Part shown: piece after piece, positions 11,056 to 17,888 of the stretch
Layout: every line of letters starts with the position of its first letter
Numbering within the stretch: the first letter of the stretch is position 1
Assembly (NCBI RefSeq): GCF_900182745.1
Contig: NZ_FXTY01000009.1
Location: 1 to 64,000 of the forward strand
Source: Shimia sagamensis
GTDB lineage: Bacteria; Pseudomonadota; Alphaproteobacteria; Rhodobacterales; Rhodobacteraceae
Length of the DNA: 64,000 bases
Direction of reading: 5' to 3'
Notes under the pieces: generated by a model
Database searches by the model: none
Told to the model about the DNA's origin: nothing
The model's input: the letters and a program-made list of their open reading frames with translations, nothing else
Made by a program: the position numbers and the translations under genes

Positions 11056-12285
11056 TTACGATTTTAGTGGGGCACCGCCTGCAAACGCGTTGCCGTTGAC
11101 ATAGTCACAAGGGGCGTCCTGCATTTGTAAGTGTAGTCCAGCACCGTCAAATTTGTGTTTTCTGGCAAGGGTTTCGTTGACTTCGATGCCGAGCCCTGGA
11201 GCTGTTGGTGGTATGACAAAGCCATTCTCGACTTTGATCGAAGAAGAGATCAAAGCGTCGTGGAACTTGGTTTCGATGGTTTCGATCATCAAGAGGTTGG
11301 GGATGGAGGCCGCCAGGTGGATGTTTGCGGCCCACTCAACGGGGCCGGCGTAGAGGTGCGGGGCGATTTGGGCGTTGTAACACTCTGCCATTGCAGCAAC
11401 TTTTTTCATTTCCCAGATGCCGCCCGCGCGGCCAAGAGCGGGTTGCAGGATTTCGGCAGCGCCGGTGCGCAGGACTGTTGCGAATTCGGACTTGGTGGTC
11501 AGGCGTTCGCCGGTAGCCACTGGAATCCTTACGTTTTTTGCAACACGGGCCATGTCTTCGATGTTGTCCGGTGGGGTGGGTTCTTCATACCAGAGCGGGC
11601 TGTAAGGTTCCAGCGCTTGGCCGAGGCGGATAGCGCCTGCTGTGGTGAATTGACCATGGGTGCCGAAGAGCAAATCTGCTTTGTTTCCAACGGTTTCGCG
11701 TATGGCAGCGCAGAAGGCGACGGACATGGAGATGTCGCTCATTGCAGGCATGTGGCCGCCGCGCATGGTGTAGGGGCCAGCGGGGTCGAATTTCACCGCT
11801 GTGTAGCCTTTTTCTACCATGGTCAGCGCGCTTTCTGCGGCCATTTCCGGCGAGGTCCAGAAGTTGGAAATGTTATGGTGGTCAAGGGGATAGAGGTATG
11901 TGTAGGCGCGTAGGCGTTCGTTCATCAACCCGCCCAAAAGCGCATAGACCGGGCGGTCGCGATCTTTGCCCAAGATGTCCCAACAGGCGATTTCGAGCCC
12001 CGAGAAGGCGCCCATAACCGTTAAGTCAGAGCGTTGCGTGAAGCCGGATGAGTAGGTGCGGCGGAACAAACGTTCAATGTTTTCAGGGTTTTCGCCCTCA
12101 AAATACCTTTCAAAAACATCGCGGATCACGGCTTGCATGGCGTCGGGGCCAACGGAGGAGGCGTAACATTCGCCCCAGCCGGTGATGCTGGTATCTGTTT
12201 GAAGTTTCACCAAAATCCAGTAGCGCCCGCCCCAGCCAGGGGCGGGGGGCGCGGTGACGATGATATCCAGATCGGTGAGCTTCAT
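11056..12285 (-). CDS. Mandelate racemase/muconate lactonizing enzyme family protein
   Basis: A 409-residue enolase-superfamily enzyme with an N-terminal capping domain (about 1-130) and a TIM barrel. Visible features are KFDPAG on the second strand, the metal-ligand segments WYEEP and GER, and APHLYAGP near the end, resembling sugar-acid dehydratases more than muconate enzymes. The exact substrate cannot be read from the sequence; a galactonate-dehydratase-like reaction is one possibility. The start 12285 follows an AAGGA ribosome site; the frame is open upstream to 12345. It lies 122 nt after the TmpB-like gene on the same strand, but a role in phosphonate use is not obvious. Confidence 0.8.
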   Translation of the reverse strand: MKLTDLDIIVTAPPAPGWGGRYWILVKLQTDTSITGWGECYASSVGPDAMQAVIRDVFERYFEGENPENIERLFRRTYSSGFTQRSDLTVMGAFSGLEIACWDILGKDRDRPVYALLGGLMNERLRAYTYLYPLDHHNISNFWTSPEMAAESALTMVEKGYTAVKFDPAGPYTMRGGHMPAMSDISMSVAFCAAIRETVGNKADLLFGTHGQFTTAGAIRLGQALEPYSPLWYEEPTPPDNIEDMARVAKNVRIPVATGERLTTKSEFATVLRTGAAEILQPALGRAGGIWEMKKVAAMAECYNAQIAPHLYAGPVEWAANIHLAASIPNLLMIETIETKFHDALISSSIKVENGFVIPPTAPGLGIEVNETLARKHKFDGAGLHLQMQDAPCDYVNGNAFAGGAPLKS

Positions 12286-12407: not shown

Positions 12408-13007
12408 TTAATCTGAAGACGTGTTAAGGTGCGCATCCACCACCCGCTGTACCATGGGCGCAAAATGCCAATAATCCGGCGTGACCATGTCGGCGCGTTT
12501 TCCAGCCTCGTCGAGGTAACGAACCTGAATGATCTTCTCCAAGTTGGGGTTGGCTTCAAAAGTGGTGACTTCGTCCTCAGACATTGGTCCGCCTTGTAAC
12601 TCCAATGTGTGCACAGAGGCGGCGGAGAGGCGTTTGAAGTATTCCGGTTTGGTGGCGCAGAGGTAGCGTTTGGCGGCGACGTGATAGAGCACGCAGTCGG
12701 TGACCACCGAGGGGAAGAACGGCGCCAGCACTTCGGCGCCGGCGTCTTCGTGGTGGCGGTCTTCGGTGTCGTTGGGATGGTAGGTGCCAAACTCGGAGGT
12801 GAAATGGCCGATGTCATGTAGGAGGGCGCTTACGATGACGTCTTCGGGCATGCCGTTTTGCTCGGCAATGGTGGCGCCTTGTAACATGTGTTCCGCCATA
12901 GTGACTGGCTCACCGAGGTATTCCTCGCCGCCGCGGCGGTCAAAGATGTCTCCCAAGAAGGCGACGATGTTGCCCTGCGATAGGGTAGAGAAATCTGGCT
13001 TGCTCAT
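12408..13007 (-). CDS. tmpB: TmpB/PhnZ-like HD-domain mixed-valent diiron oxygenase
   Basis: A 199-residue HD-fold protein that resembles PhnZ and TmpB rather than phosphohydrolases. Probable iron ligands are H40, H64-D65 (in LLHDIGH), H86 and H109. The substrate-contact pair of PhnZ appears here as Y30 and E33 (EYLGE). The family stretch HVAAKRYL and the later LQGGPM are present. In this family the enzyme uses O2 to cleave the C-P bond of a 1-hydroxyphosphonate. It overlaps the dioxygenase gene by ATGA, so the two are translationally coupled. Together they should convert 2-(trimethylammonio)ethylphosphonate to glycine betaine and phosphate (TmpA/TmpB) or 2-aminoethylphosphonate to glycine (PhnY/PhnZ). 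Context favours Tmp. Confidence 0.8.
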   Translation of the reverse strand: MSKPDFSTLSQGNIVAFLGDIFDRRGGEEYLGEPVTMAEHMLQGATIAEQNGMPEDVIVSALLHDIGHFTSEFGTYHPNDTEDRHHEDAGAEVLAPFFPSVVTDCVLYHVAAKRYLCATKPEYFKRLSAASVHTLELQGGPMSEDEVTTFEANPNLEKIIQVRYLDEAGKRADMVTPDYWHFAPMVQRVVDAHLNTSSD

Positions 13008-14131
13008 GCGTTTGCCTCCAGCGCCGCGAGGGTGGAGAGCAGCCCGTCTTTGTCTGCGTAGCAGCCTTGGAGCCAGCGTTTGCCGGCGCCGGAGTAGCCT
13101 TTGCGGGCGTGCAGGACGCGGGTGTTGTCGACAATGAAAGCTTCGCCGGGGTTCAGCTTGAAGCGAACTTCGGATGCTGGATCGTCGATGATGTCTGAAA
13201 GCTGACGCATGGCGGCATAGTACGCGGGCATTTTGTCAAATGGTACGTCCACCGGAGCAGCAGAGGAACGGGCATTGAAACGCACCGATTGCAGTGTGCC
13301 TTCCGGCGTGAGTTCGATCACCGGACGACGGGAGGAAAGGCGTACGCCTGCCTCTCCGGCGTATTCAAAACGAGCCGAGTAGTTGTGCAAAAGTGCAAAT
13401 CCTTCGGGGTTTTGTTCGCGTAGCTTTTGTGCAGCTGCAAAGCCATCGACCACCATATTCGCGCCACCCTCAGCAGAGTTCTCAAGGCAGGATAAGATTT
13501 GCAGTGAAGGCACCGGGTCGCGGTAGGGATTGTCGGTGTGAGCCTGGAGACCCAACCCAGTAAAGGCGAGGTTGGTTGGGTTGACCTCTGTGCGAACCTC
13601 AAAATGGCGGCCGTAGTTGGTTTCGCGCACATAGCCGAAAAGGTCGACAACCTTGAACAACGCGCCGGATTCCGTGGGCAGGCCGGAGACTTTGGCAAAG
13701 CCGTAACGGCGGATGGCGGCGAGCCATGTGCGTTTCGCCTCGGCGTTTGTGGCGAGGTCGGGGTAGTGGCCGGTGGGCACGGTGTCATTGAGAGCTTCGC
13801 CCCAGGTTTCTGCGTGTTCCGGCAGGTGGCCGGGCGTGGTGTCCTGTGGGAGGTCATAGGCGTTTGCGAGCAGCCACGCGATGGGGAAGGAAACCGATTT
13901 GTTGTCATCTGCAAAGGAGATATCAACGGCGCTCTCGGAGGCTTCTGCCGTGGCGAGTGCGCAGTTGTCTGGGAGGTCCGCCAAGGTTATCAGCCGCTGT
14001 CCATTTCCGGGATCGCGCGTATCTGCATCCAGCGCGTTGTGGCGCAGCCAGACACCGTGGAAACGGTGGGCGCCGGACGGTGTTGTGAGCGTAAGGATTT
14101 GATTGTCGGGAGAGAGCTGCACCTGGGTCAT
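13004..14131 (-). CDS. tmpA: TmpA-like 2-oxoglutarate/Fe(II) dioxygenase
   Basis: A 375-residue enzyme of the gamma-butyrobetaine hydroxylase/TauD fold. The iron triad is H198, D200 (AHTDNPYRD) and H341 (VLHARKGY); R352 in KRW is placed to bind 2-oxoglutarate. The N-terminal domain keeps WLRHN but lacks the zinc cysteines seen in human gamma-butyrobetaine hydroxylase. Automatic annotation would call it gamma-butyrobetaine dioxygenase. The ATGA overlap with the PhnZ/TmpB-like gene points instead to TmpA, which hydroxylates the carbon next to phosphorus in N-trimethylated aminoethylphosphonate. The start is ATG 14131 with an AAGGAC site; upstream codons to 14269 overlap the divergent LysR gene. 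It is probably controlled by that LysR protein. Confidence 0.78.
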   Translation of the reverse strand: MTQVQLSPDNQILTLTTPSGAHRFHGVWLRHNALDADTRDPGNGQRLITLADLPDNCALATAEASESAVDISFADDNKSVSFPIAWLLANAYDLPQDTTPGHLPEHAETWGEALNDTVPTGHYPDLATNAEAKRTWLAAIRRYGFAKVSGLPTESGALFKVVDLFGYVRETNYGRHFEVRTEVNPTNLAFTGLGLQAHTDNPYRDPVPSLQILSCLENSAEGGANMVVDGFAAAQKLREQNPEGFALLHNYSARFEYAGEAGVRLSSRRPVIELTPEGTLQSVRFNARSSAAPVDVPFDKMPAYYAAMRQLSDIIDDPASEVRFKLNPGEAFIVDNTRVLHARKGYSGAGKRWLQGCYADKDGLLSTLAALEANA

Positions 14132-14176: not shown

Positions 14177-14193
14177 ACTGGGGATGCGTAGGC

Positions 14194-14208
14194 ATAAATT
14201 CAAATTAT
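14194..14208. promoter_or_regulatory. Candidate LysR box (T-N11-A)
   Basis: The sequence ATAAATTCAAATTAT has ATAA/TTAT arms and fits the T-N11-A rule of LysR-type operators. It lies between the divergent tmpA-like and lysR genes, 31 nt before the regulator ATG, where autoregulation and control of the dioxygenase operon would both be possible. Confidence 0.42.
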
Positions 14209-14238: not shown

Positions 14239-15102
14239 ATGGATAAAACTGGGTTTGATCATCTGCCACTGGAGTGGGTGCGGGCGTTTGAGGCGGCGGC
14301 GCGGCTGGGCAGTTTCACGGCGGCCGCACAGGAAACAAGTTTGACGCAATCGGCGATCAGTCAGCGGATTGGGCATCTGGAGGCGCGCCTTGGAACGCAG
14401 TTGTTTGTGCGCCAAGCGCGGCGGATCACCTTGACAGCGGATGGCGAGGCCTGGCTGCCGCATGTGCAGGCTGCCTTGGTGGGGTTGCGCGACAGCACGG
14501 AAGCGCTGTTTGGCGTGTCGCGTAATCGGCTGACCATTTCAGCAAGCGGCTCGATCAATGAGCTATGGCTGGTGCCGCGATTGGAGCAGCTCGCTGAGGT
14601 GAGCGGGGCGCAGATCACGCTGAGCACGATGGTTGTGGCGTCCGGCGATACCAAAGACGATGCGGCGGTTCGCATTCGGTATGGCAGTGGCGATTGGCCG
14701 GTGGCCTACGCGGTGCCGCTGTATGAGGAGCGGTTGAGCCCGGTGGTGGCACCCGCGTTGCTTGGGCGAGGAGCCTGGCAGACGTTGCCACGGTTGTCGG
14801 TCTCGGGGCCACGGCCAAGTTGGCGGCGGTGGTGTGCACAGACGGATACGTCTACGACGCCGGTATCCCATCTGCGGTTTGACAGCTTTTGCGCGGGACT
14901 GGCGGCGGCGCGGGCCGGGCAGGGGGTGCTGCTGGCGTCCCTACCTTTGGTGCAGGCGGAGTTGGACGCCGGGCGGTTGGTGCGGGTGGCGGATGAGGTG
15001 CTGCGCCACCATGAGACCTATTGGCTGCTTGGTGCCAAAGAGCGGTTGTCGCGGCGGCAGTGGCGGCAGTTGTCGGGATGTTTGGTGGACGGCACGGCGT
15101 AG
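14239..15102 (+). CDS. LysR-family transcriptional regulator
   Basis: A 287-residue LysR-type regulator. The N-terminal helix-turn-helix covers about residues 6-65 (LGSFTAAAQETSLTQSAIS is the recognition part). It is followed by the linker helix and an effector-binding domain like that of the GcvA/AmpR branch. The ATG at 14239 is preceded by GAGAGG; a GTG four codons upstream is less likely. It is transcribed away from the TmpA/TmpB-like genes and by the usual LysR rule should control them, perhaps with a phosphonate as inducer. Its stop abuts the stop of the next convergent gene with no spacer (TAGTTA). Confidence 0.88.
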   Translation: MDKTGFDHLPLEWVRAFEAAARLGSFTAAAQETSLTQSAISQRIGHLEARLGTQLFVRQARRITLTADGEAWLPHVQAALVGLRDSTEALFGVSRNRLTISASGSINELWLVPRLEQLAEVSGAQITLSTMVVASGDTKDDAAVRIRYGSGDWPVAYAVPLYEERLSPVVAPALLGRGAWQTLPRLSVSGPRPSWRRWCAQTDTSTTPVSHLRFDSFCAGLAAARAGQGVLLASLPLVQAELDAGRLVRVADEVLRHHETYWLLGAKERLSRRQWRQLSGCLVDGTA

Positions 15103-15497: not shown

Positions 15498-16586
15498 TCA
15501 GCGCTCAAATACAATCACATTGCGCTTTGCGCTACCGGTTTTGGTGTCGGCGATGGCCTCGTTGATCTGGTCCAGCGTCCAGCGGCCAGAGATCAGCTCG
15601 TCCAGCTTCAGGCGGCCTTGCTCATAGAGGTCGACCATCCACGGGATGTCGCGTTTGATCACCACGTCTCCCATTTTGGAGCCCTGCATGCCCTGGCCGA
15701 TGGCAGCCATGATAACCGGCTCGTAGGTGGATTTGGCACCGGAGTGTGGCATGCCAACCATGATGACCTTGCCGCCCGGTGCAAGGTAGCGCGGGGCGTC
15801 GTCATAGGCGGGGATGGCACCAACGGTGACAATCACGGCGTCCGCGCCGCGACCCATGGCGCGCATGGCTTTGATGAAGGGCTTTTTGTCGGTGGCAAGC
15901 ACGCCGTCGGTGGCGCCGAATTCCTTCGCGATGGCGAGTTTTTCTTCGCTCATGTCGACGGCGACGATGCGGCGGGCACCGGCAATGCGCGCGCCCTGGA
16001 TGGCGTTGAGGCCCACGCCGCCGGCGCCAATCACCACCACGTCCTGACCGGCGCGGATTTGGGCGGCGTTCACAACCGCGCCAACGCCGGTGATCACACC
16101 ACAGGCAATCAGGCTGGCGGCTTCCATCGGGATGTCTTCGGAGATTTTCACCACTTGCGATTGGTCGACCACGACCTTTTCAGCGAAGGCACCACAGGCC
16201 ATGGCCTGATGCAGTTTGCCGCCGTCGGCGGTGGTCAGCGGGCCTTTGTCGCCGTCGTATGGCGTGGAGCAGATGACTGGCTTGCCTTCGGAACAGGTGG
16301 GGCAGGTGCCGCAGGCGCGGATCAGGGTGACAATGACTGGGTCGCCTTCCGCGAGGCCGGTCACGCCATCCCCCACGGAGGTGATATGTCCGGCGGCTTC
16401 GTGGCCGTAGACCGCAGGCAGACTGCCACCCCAAGCGCCGTCAGCAAAGGAAATGTCGGAATGGCAGATGGCGACGGCGGAGAGGTTGACCTCGATCTCG
16501 CCCATTTGTGGCGCGCGCAGGGTGACGTCTTCGACGACAAGGGGCTGGCCAAATTCATGGCAGACGGCGGCTTTGATGGTGCTCAT
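15498..16586 (-). CDS. Zinc-dependent alcohol dehydrogenase family protein
   Basis: A 362-residue medium-chain dehydrogenase. The catalytic zinc region is seen in AICHSD and GHEAAG. The structural zinc loop has four cysteines in CGTCPTCSEGKPVIC. The nucleotide-binding turn is VIGAGGVGLNAI in the Rossmann domain, pointing to NAD. It resembles the class III alcohol / S-(hydroxymethyl)glutathione dehydrogenase branch but is shorter than formaldehyde enzymes (about 370-375), so the substrate is left open. The start 16586 excludes a 10-residue extension that does not align with the family. It is followed by the 123-residue hypothetical protein. Confidence 0.85.
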   Translation of the reverse strand: MSTIKAAVCHEFGQPLVVEDVTLRAPQMGEIEVNLSAVAICHSDISFADGAWGGSLPAVYGHEAAGHITSVGDGVTGLAEGDPVIVTLIRACGTCPTCSEGKPVICSTPYDGDKGPLTTADGGKLHQAMACGAFAEKVVVDQSQVVKISEDIPMEAASLIACGVITGVGAVVNAAQIRAGQDVVVIGAGGVGLNAIQGARIAGARRIVAVDMSEEKLAIAKEFGATDGVLATDKKPFIKAMRAMGRGADAVIVTVGAIPAYDDAPRYLAPGGKVIMVGMPHSGAKSTYEPVIMAAIGQGMQGSKMGDVVIKRDIPWMVDLYEQGRLKLDELISGRWTLDQINEAIADTKTGSAKRNVIVFER

Positions 16587-16682
16587 GAGCGAGGAGTCCC
16601 TTGTGTTTGGTGTCACGTCCAGTTTGCGCCAGCTTAGGCACGGGCGGACGGTTCAATCCAGACATAGGGTGTCGTTTTTTGC

Positions 16683-17888
16683 CTAAGTGGCGCGACGTGA
16701 CTTTGCAAAAACCGCAATTGCGATCATCAAAAGGGCAGCGGCGAGCAAGAAGGGCGCCCCCGGCAGGTAGAGCACAGCGTGTTTGTCGGAGAAATGCGCG
16801 AAGGTTTGCGTCATCACCAAAGGGGCCGCGATATGGGCCAGTGAGGTGAGTGAGGCGGAGATGCCTTGCAACTCGCCCTGGGCATCGTCCGAGACACGGC
16901 GGGACATAATGCTTTGGAGTGCGGGCAAGCCTACAGAGGAGAGTGCAGCGACGGGGATGCCGATGAACAGGAGGATGCCGTTGGAGATCACGGCGAGATA
17001 GATCAGGGCGACAACTTCCAATCCCAATCCGATCACAACGGTGCGGCGGTTGCCAAACCACTTGGTGAACGGGCCAATCAGGGTCGCCTGCACAATGGCA
17101 AAGCAGAGACCATAGGCGGTGAGGCTGAGGCCAATCATGGCTTCTTCCCAGCCAAAGCGCTCGATGATGAAGTAGGGCCAGATCGCGGGATAGACTGCCG
17201 CAGCAATTTGGTAAAAGAAGAAGACAATCAGTAGGTTGGTCATGGCAGGCAGCTTGCCAAGCGCTTGCAGGGCTCCCAGTGGATTGGAACGACGCCATTC
17301 AAAAGCGCGGCGGTTGGCGTCGGTCACAGTTTCCTTGAGCACCATCCAACCCAAAAGCGCGTTGCCACCTGCCAGAACTGCGGCGGCCCAGAACGGTGCG
17401 CGGGTGCCAAATTGGCCCATAATCCCGCCTATGACAGGCCCAAAGACAAAGCCCACGCCCATGGCGGCGCCGATCATGCCAAAGGCTTTGGCCTTTTCTT
17501 TGGCGTCGGACATGTCCGCCATATAGGCCATGGCGGTGGCGTAGGTGGCCGCGGTGATCCCGGCCACGATACGGCCAATCACCAAAATCCAGATGTTATG
17601 TGCAAGGGCCATGATGACATAGTCCGCCGACATCACCGCAAGCGACACCAGCAACACCGGACGGCGGCCAAAGCGGTCTGAGAGATTGCCCAGAAGTGGA
17701 CCGCAAAGGAACTGCATGAAGGCAAAGACGGTCGCAAGAATACCACCCCAAACCGCCGCTGAACCAAGATCACCGCCAGCAACCTCTTGAATGAGGTCGG
17801 GCATCACCGGGATGATCAGGCCGATACCCATGGCATCGATCATCACCGTGGCCAGAATCACAAATATTGGCAGGCGGTTGCGCATCAT
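16683..17888 (-). CDS. TetA-like MFS transporter
   Basis: A 401-residue major facilitator with 12 predicted membrane segments. The TetA-type loop GNLSDRFGRRPVLL between segments 2 and 3 is the main signature, and the N-terminus MIDAMGIGLIIPVMPDL is typical of the TCR/Tet group. Such chromosomal proteins in marine alphaproteobacteria are generally uncharacterised drug/proton antiporter relatives; sequence alone does not show tetracycline resistance. Two ATG codons in a row (17888, 17885) are possible starts. It follows the PcaB-like gene by 169 nt and may be transcribed with it or separately. Confidence 0.82.
   Translation of the reverse strand: MMRNRLPIFVILATVMIDAMGIGLIIPVMPDLIQEVAGGDLGSAAVWGGILATVFAFMQFLCGPLLGNLSDRFGRRPVLLVSLAVMSADYVIMALAHNIWILVIGRIVAGITAATYATAMAYMADMSDAKEKAKAFGMIGAAMGVGFVFGPVIGGIMGQFGTRAPFWAAAVLAGGNALLGWMVLKETVTDANRRAFEWRRSNPLGALQALGKLPAMTNLLIVFFFYQIAAAVYPAIWPYFIIERFGWEEAMIGLSLTAYGLCFAIVQATLIGPFTKWFGNRRTVVIGLGLEVVALIYLAVISNGILLFIGIPVAALSSVGLPALQSIMSRRVSDDAQGELQGISASLTSLAHIAAPLVMTQTFAHFSDKHAVLYLPGAPFLLAAALLMIAIAVFAKSRRAT

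Follow-up and report, generated by a model that had tools for sequence, protein, structure and literature searches.

The window analyzed here, 64,000 nt of a Shimia sagamensis contig (NZ_FXTY01000009.1), contains two overlapping genes, for a dioxygenase and an HD-domain protein, which the initial annotation read as a pair for the oxidative cleavage of a phosphonate. The gene for the 2-oxoglutarate/Fe(II) dioxygenase (375 aa) lies at 13004–14131 on the minus strand, with the ATG at 14131 and the stop codon ending at 13004. The gene for the HD-domain protein, a predicted mixed-valent diiron oxygenase of 199 aa, follows on the same strand at 12408–13007, overlapping the first one by the four bases ATGA, and a gene for a LysR-type regulator (287 aa, 14239–15102, plus strand) diverges from the pair. 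All of this, coordinates, strand, overlap and divergent gene, had been read in the same way in the initial annotation. The locus is very probably an ordinary tmpA–tmpB operon with a divergent LysR gene, predicted from the sequence to yield glycine betaine and phosphate from 2-(trimethylammonio)ethylphosphonate (TMAEP).

Family assignment of the two enzymes

The proteins were compared with profile models of NCBIfam release 20.0 (June 2026), which carry curated equivalog cut-offs. The dioxygenase scores 551.2 bits with the TmpA model NF049936 (cut-off 400), and the HD protein, 348.5 bits with the TmpB model NF049941 (cut-off 300). The models of the neighboring families stay below their cut-offs: gamma-butyrobetaine hydroxylase (GBBH, TIGR02409) at 393.9 of 414.75 bits, the HMP dioxygenase at 143.3 of 300 bits, and the PhnZ-type Phn-HD family (TIGR03276) at 195.3 of 214.6 bits. 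The only Pfam domains over cut-off are TauD (148 bits) and HD (31 bits). Hence the earlier labels "GBBH type" and "PhnZ-like" are retained at the superfamily level, TauD and HD, respectively, while at the level of families the proteins belong with TmpA and TmpB.

Solved structures yield the same assignment. The best match of the dioxygenase is TmpA (6npb; E = 4.5e-145, 486.6 bits; 60% identity over 363 residues in BLASTP), with human GBBH behind it (E = 6e-44, 153.8 bits), and the best match of the HD protein is TmpB (6npa; E = 3e-105, 353.4 bits; 79% identity over 194 residues), with PhnZ behind it (E about 1e-30, 110.5 bits; 36% identity over 180 residues). TmpA and TmpB of Leisingera caerulea (PDB 6npa, 6npb-d) were reportedly described by Rajakovich et al. 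in 2019.

The initial annotation had proposed a phylogeny of both proteins as a check and had named a grouping of the dioxygenase with genuine GBBHs as a refutation. This outcome did not occur: in both trees that we constructed the dioxygenase clusters with TmpA and does not group with GBBH-like proteins. The quick tree comprises 84 rows, of which 21 are GBBH-like paralogues and 63 are TmpA (the protein of the window, that of 6npb, and 61 others); it splits the two sets with SH-aLRT support of 98. The careful tree, with 62 TmpA and 18 GBBH-like rows and the long rows L047, L083, L087, and L088 left out, places the window dioxygenase with the solved TmpA and apart from all 18 paralogues with support 100/100, although in both trees the program warned of long branches meeting at the TmpA/GBBH-like split, so that the support may be overstated. 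The "GBBH-like" paralogues are putative and are themselves below the TIGR02409 cut-off.

Active-site residues were counted over distinct rows from the fetched loci (65 for TmpB and 63 for TmpA), a set that does not cover all 62 and 60 genomes carrying the respective genes (see below). The residues listed for the HD protein in the initial annotation, Y30, E33, H40, H64, D65, H86, and H109, are present at these very numbers, and the numbering coincides with that of L. caerulea TmpB; the protein also has H68, K113, and the last diiron ligand position, D166. All ten positions are invariant in the 65 TmpB rows and occur in PhnZ as well, H181 is kept in 62 of the 65 rows, and position 172 is variable, with alanine in 38 rows. 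The protein thereby fits the H...HD...H...H...D diiron motif (H40, H64-D65, H86, H109, D166) and the YxxE loop (Y30, E33), both described in the available part of PMC8177086.

In TmpA, the iron ligands H198, D200, and H341 are found in all 63 rows, as are Y173, F177, and Y358. Together with position 190 the latter form the aromatic cage, to which we ascribe binding of the trimethylammonium group by analogy with GBBH structures. Three of the four cage residues are the same as in Leisingera; the fourth, at position 190, is phenylalanine here and tyrosine in Leisingera, phenylalanine occurring in 19 of the 63 rows in a scattered manner. N201, Y203, R204, and R288 are typical of TmpA: each is present in 63 of 63 rows, whereas the same letter is seen in 0, 1, 3, and 1 of the 21 GBBH-like paralogues, respectively. 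One more difference from Leisingera is at position 287, alanine here and asparagine there. This residue adjoins N286, which aligns with N292 of GBBH (numbers of human GBBH were counted by hand on the structure-match alignment), presumably a pocket residue contacting the substrate.

The initial annotation had further claimed that standard pipelines would call this locus carnitine biosynthesis plus a phosphohydrolase. That no longer applies to the window genes, as NCBIfam 20.0 names both of them and the dioxygenase is below the GBBH cut-off, but it does apply to some relatives. In 149 genomes drawn from the family, just three proteins exceed the TIGR02409 cut-off, and all three are TmpA encoded beside TmpB (L032, L033, L034), with 568–596 bits against the TmpA model. 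Calls of carnitine biosynthesis made from that model alone are therefore suspect within the family.

The gene pair and its regulator among relatives

Among 292 genomes of the order, TmpB is over cut-off in 62 and TmpA in 60, and all 60 genomes with TmpA also carry TmpB, encoded adjacently, within 150 nt. The two genomes with TmpB and no TmpA at E<=1e-30 (G184 and G251) might consume ready-made (R)-1-hydroxy-TMAEP ((R)-OH-TMAEP). The lone TmpB of G251 (L066, 7371–7961; 350 bits) has MoeA among its neighbors, and that of G184 (L067, 7662–8231; 339 bits) has a carbon-nitrogen hydrolase directly upstream.

The closest relatives of the window, 80 named loci kept out of 141 relatives, come frequently from Ruegeria, Leisingera, Aliiroseovarius, and Shimia. 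In all 80 of them tmpA is directly upstream of tmpB, and ATGA is found near the junction in 78, as judged by a loose test. In 77 of the 80, a homologue of the LysR gene is encoded divergently to tmpA; since these loci are the window's closest relatives, this figure is not a family-wide rate. The tmpA–tmpB pair is thus ordinary and frequent among relatives.

The best model for the LysR protein is GcvA, at 197.5 bits and under the cut-off of 288. In the alignment of 15 loci with the divergent arrangement, the segment at 14191–14207 between tmpA and lysR (GGCATAAATTCAAATTA) has mean column conservation of 72% over 17 columns, compared to 42% in the whole alignment, gaps included, and we consider it a candidate LysR box. 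The other segments among the six best-conserved ones are all at the lysR start, and the element is weaker in L035, L057, and L059. The region contains ATAA-N7-TTAT at 14194–14208, which we take to have the T-N11-A form of LysR sites; a palindrome with six of seven pairs at the candidate box is seen in only two of the 15 loci, the window and L056.

The slot between ADH and MR/MLE

The cassette is flanked by a gene for an MR/MLE enolase-superfamily protein (409 aa, 11056–12285, minus strand) and, at the other edge of the slot, by a gene for an alcohol dehydrogenase (ADH) family protein (15498–16616, minus strand; best NCBIfam model TIGR03989, below cut-off), between which tmpAB, the LysR gene and a gene for a 123-aa hypothetical protein are located. 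Of the 62 genomes with TmpB, at least 11, that of the window included, have the MR/MLE gene no more than 500 nt away from tmpB, as judged from 18 MR/MLE positions.

We compared 13 loci with the ADH and MR/MLE genes, 10 from genomes without TmpB over cut-off and three (L106–L108) from genomes with tmpAB elsewhere. In the former, two of which are of the same genus (L096, L097), the ADH and MR/MLE genes are 15–402 nt apart with no tmpAB between them, and in two of the ten the hypothetical gene occupies the gap. In the latter, the gap is 13, 32, and 1497 nt (the last in L108), so that over the entire set it is 13–402 nt in 12 of 13 loci. Hence the site is conserved, tmpAB is an optional cassette within it, and the neighbors are probably unrelated to the pathway.

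We also considered the MR/MLE gene as a third gene of the pathway and regard this as unlikely, since matches at E<=1e-60 occur in 228 of the 292 genomes, compared to 60 with both tmpA and tmpB, and in relatives it neighbors ADH in the absence of tmpAB. The nearest solved relatives of the protein, 3t4w and 3rcy, bear generic superfamily names only. The ADH and MR/MLE pair itself (15498–16616 and 11056–12285) looks like an uncharacterised catabolic step. The gene at 16683–17888 encodes an MFS transporter similar to tetracycline efflux proteins (366 bits against a cut-off of 475); as it is found beside the alcohol dehydrogenase gene in many relatives, it is probably an ordinary transporter.

In the careful tree, the TmpA proteins encoded in the slot, those from 11 nested loci and the window, form a single group (support 94/90), consistent with one entry into the slot followed by descent, transfer or loss. 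The alanine at position 287 is confined to this group: it is found in 11 of the 63 TmpA rows, those of the window, L043, L048, L055, L056, L058, L060–L062, L064, and L094, which make up 11 of the 12 nested rows. L006 is the sole nested row lacking it, and no TmpA row from outside the slot has it. The LysR gene is present at the nested loci of the window, L055, and L056; no match to the LysR homologue is found at L058, L060–L065, and L094, and it is missing beside most nested copies of tmpAB outside the window's nearest kin.

What may be novel is in the details, namely, the position of the cassette between ADH and MR/MLE, the single TmpA group found there, and the replacement of asparagine by alanine in most of its members; the pathway and the enzymes are covered on the literature side (PMC8177086, PMC10574752, PMC11203657, and PMC9296572, all as far as their available parts go). 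In the available part of PMC8316502, which does not use the names TmpA and TmpB, homologues of the PhnZ clade are counted in ocean data with regard to the trimethylated substrate.

Predicted pathway and alternative readings

By analogy with the Leisingera enzymes, from which the substrate, stereochemistry and products are transferred, TmpA would hold the trimethylammonium group of TMAEP in its aromatic cage and hydroxylate C1, yielding the (R)-1-hydroxy compound. TmpB, as an Fe(II)/Fe(III) oxygenase of the HD-domain type, would then use O2 to cut the C–P bond of (R)-OH-TMAEP, releasing glycine betaine and phosphate. The operon would be controlled by the LysR protein, and TMAEP would presumably enter the cell through a PhnCDE-like transporter whose genes are at another place in the genome. 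The conversion of TMAEP to glycine betaine and phosphate, as put forward in the initial annotation, is well supported by homology, as both equivalog cut-offs are passed and the dioxygenase clusters with TmpA. Compared to the L. caerulea pair, both enzymes, their pairing, the TmpB active-site residues, the TmpA iron ligands and all cage residues but that at position 190 are the same, while the identity is 60% for TmpA and 79% for TmpB, the window TmpA has F190 and A287, and the window cassette is located between ADH and the MR/MLE gene.

That the dioxygenase is a genuine GBBH of carnitine biosynthesis, with an unrelated HD phosphohydrolase next to it, seems extremely unlikely. Membership in the same superfamily, the shared iron ligands and trimethylammonium cage, and a TIGR02409 score close beneath the cut-off would fit this reading. 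However, the score with the TmpA model is far higher (551.2 bits), both trees part the protein from GBBH-like paralogues, N201, Y203, R204, and R288 are those of TmpA, and the pairing with TmpB holds in 60 of 60 genomes. An equally small chance is given to a PhnY*/PhnZ-type pair acting mainly on 2-aminoethylphosphonate (2-AEP) or methylphosphonate. The systems PhnY*/PhnZ (2-AEP) and GmPhnY/GmPhnZ (methylphosphonate) have in common with the window pair the two-step oxidative cleavage of the C–P bond, according to the available part of PMC8177086, as well as the YxxE loop and the H-HD-H-H-D ligands, and the HD protein is related to PhnZ at 36% identity; yet its identity to TmpB is 79%, the models for the HMP dioxygenase (143 of 300 bits) and Phn-HD (195 of 214.6 bits) are both under cut-off, and the dioxygenase, with its cage for a quaternary ammonium group, belongs to the GBBH/TmpA type. 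Model scores, trees and residues together lead us to reject both the GBBH and the PhnYZ identity. The available part of the review PMC10574752 describes TmpA as highly specific for the trimethylated compound, and activity with 2-AEP is not expected for the enzyme. A further member of the superfamily, DfmD of dehydrofosmidomycin biosynthesis (9j0j), shares TMAEP as a substrate with TmpA, according to the available part of PMC9296572, but it rearranges and desaturates, and the window dioxygenase matches it with 98 bits compared to 487 for TmpA.

More room is left for variation within the TmpA/TmpB family, since A287 and F190 differ from the Leisingera TmpA, which has 60% identity, and a shifted substrate preference might result. 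A sub-type preferring, e.g., mono- or dimethylated aminoethylphosphonate would agree with the single group of slot TmpAs (94/90), with the restriction of all 11 A287 rows to the slot, where L006 alone lacks it, and with the location of residue 287 next to the counterpart of GBBH N292. On the other hand, nothing differs at the iron ligands, at three of the four cage positions or at the residues typical of TmpA, both proteins score above their equivalog cut-offs, and a common ancestor accounts for the shared alanine without any change of function, so we consider such a sub-type improbable. The same low probability is assigned to an extended pathway in the slot, where a TmpA sub-type would act on a related quaternary-ammonium phosphonate, and the MR/MLE or ADH protein, on its precursor or product. 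The ordinary tmpA–tmpB operon acting on TMAEP is thus retained as the preferred reading.

Other parts of phosphonate metabolism were sought in the window's own genome. It has one TauD-family gene and one Phn-HD homologue, with no second copy of either. No PhnJ was found and no PhnX over cut-off, PhnA, PhnW, and PalA being outside this search. On another contig, unlinked to tmpAB, PhnC and two PhnE over cut-off are clustered with a PhnD-like protein, which passes the subfamily cut-off but, with 143 of 261 bits, not that of the PhnD equivalog; the predicted PhnCDE-like transporter is a candidate uptake route for phosphonates. This ABC transporter locus (L118, 5247–9703, contig C6) adjoins genes for a response regulator and a histidine kinase. 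The genome also has two SoxA subunits over cut-off and three matches to PF12849, the latter uninformative.

As PhnJ was not found and PhnX was not found over cut-off, with PhnA and PalA outside the search, TmpA/TmpB may be an important C–P cleaving route in this bacterium, and the locus brings a further genome, from Shimia, into the set of those predicted to use TMAEP by the oxidative route.
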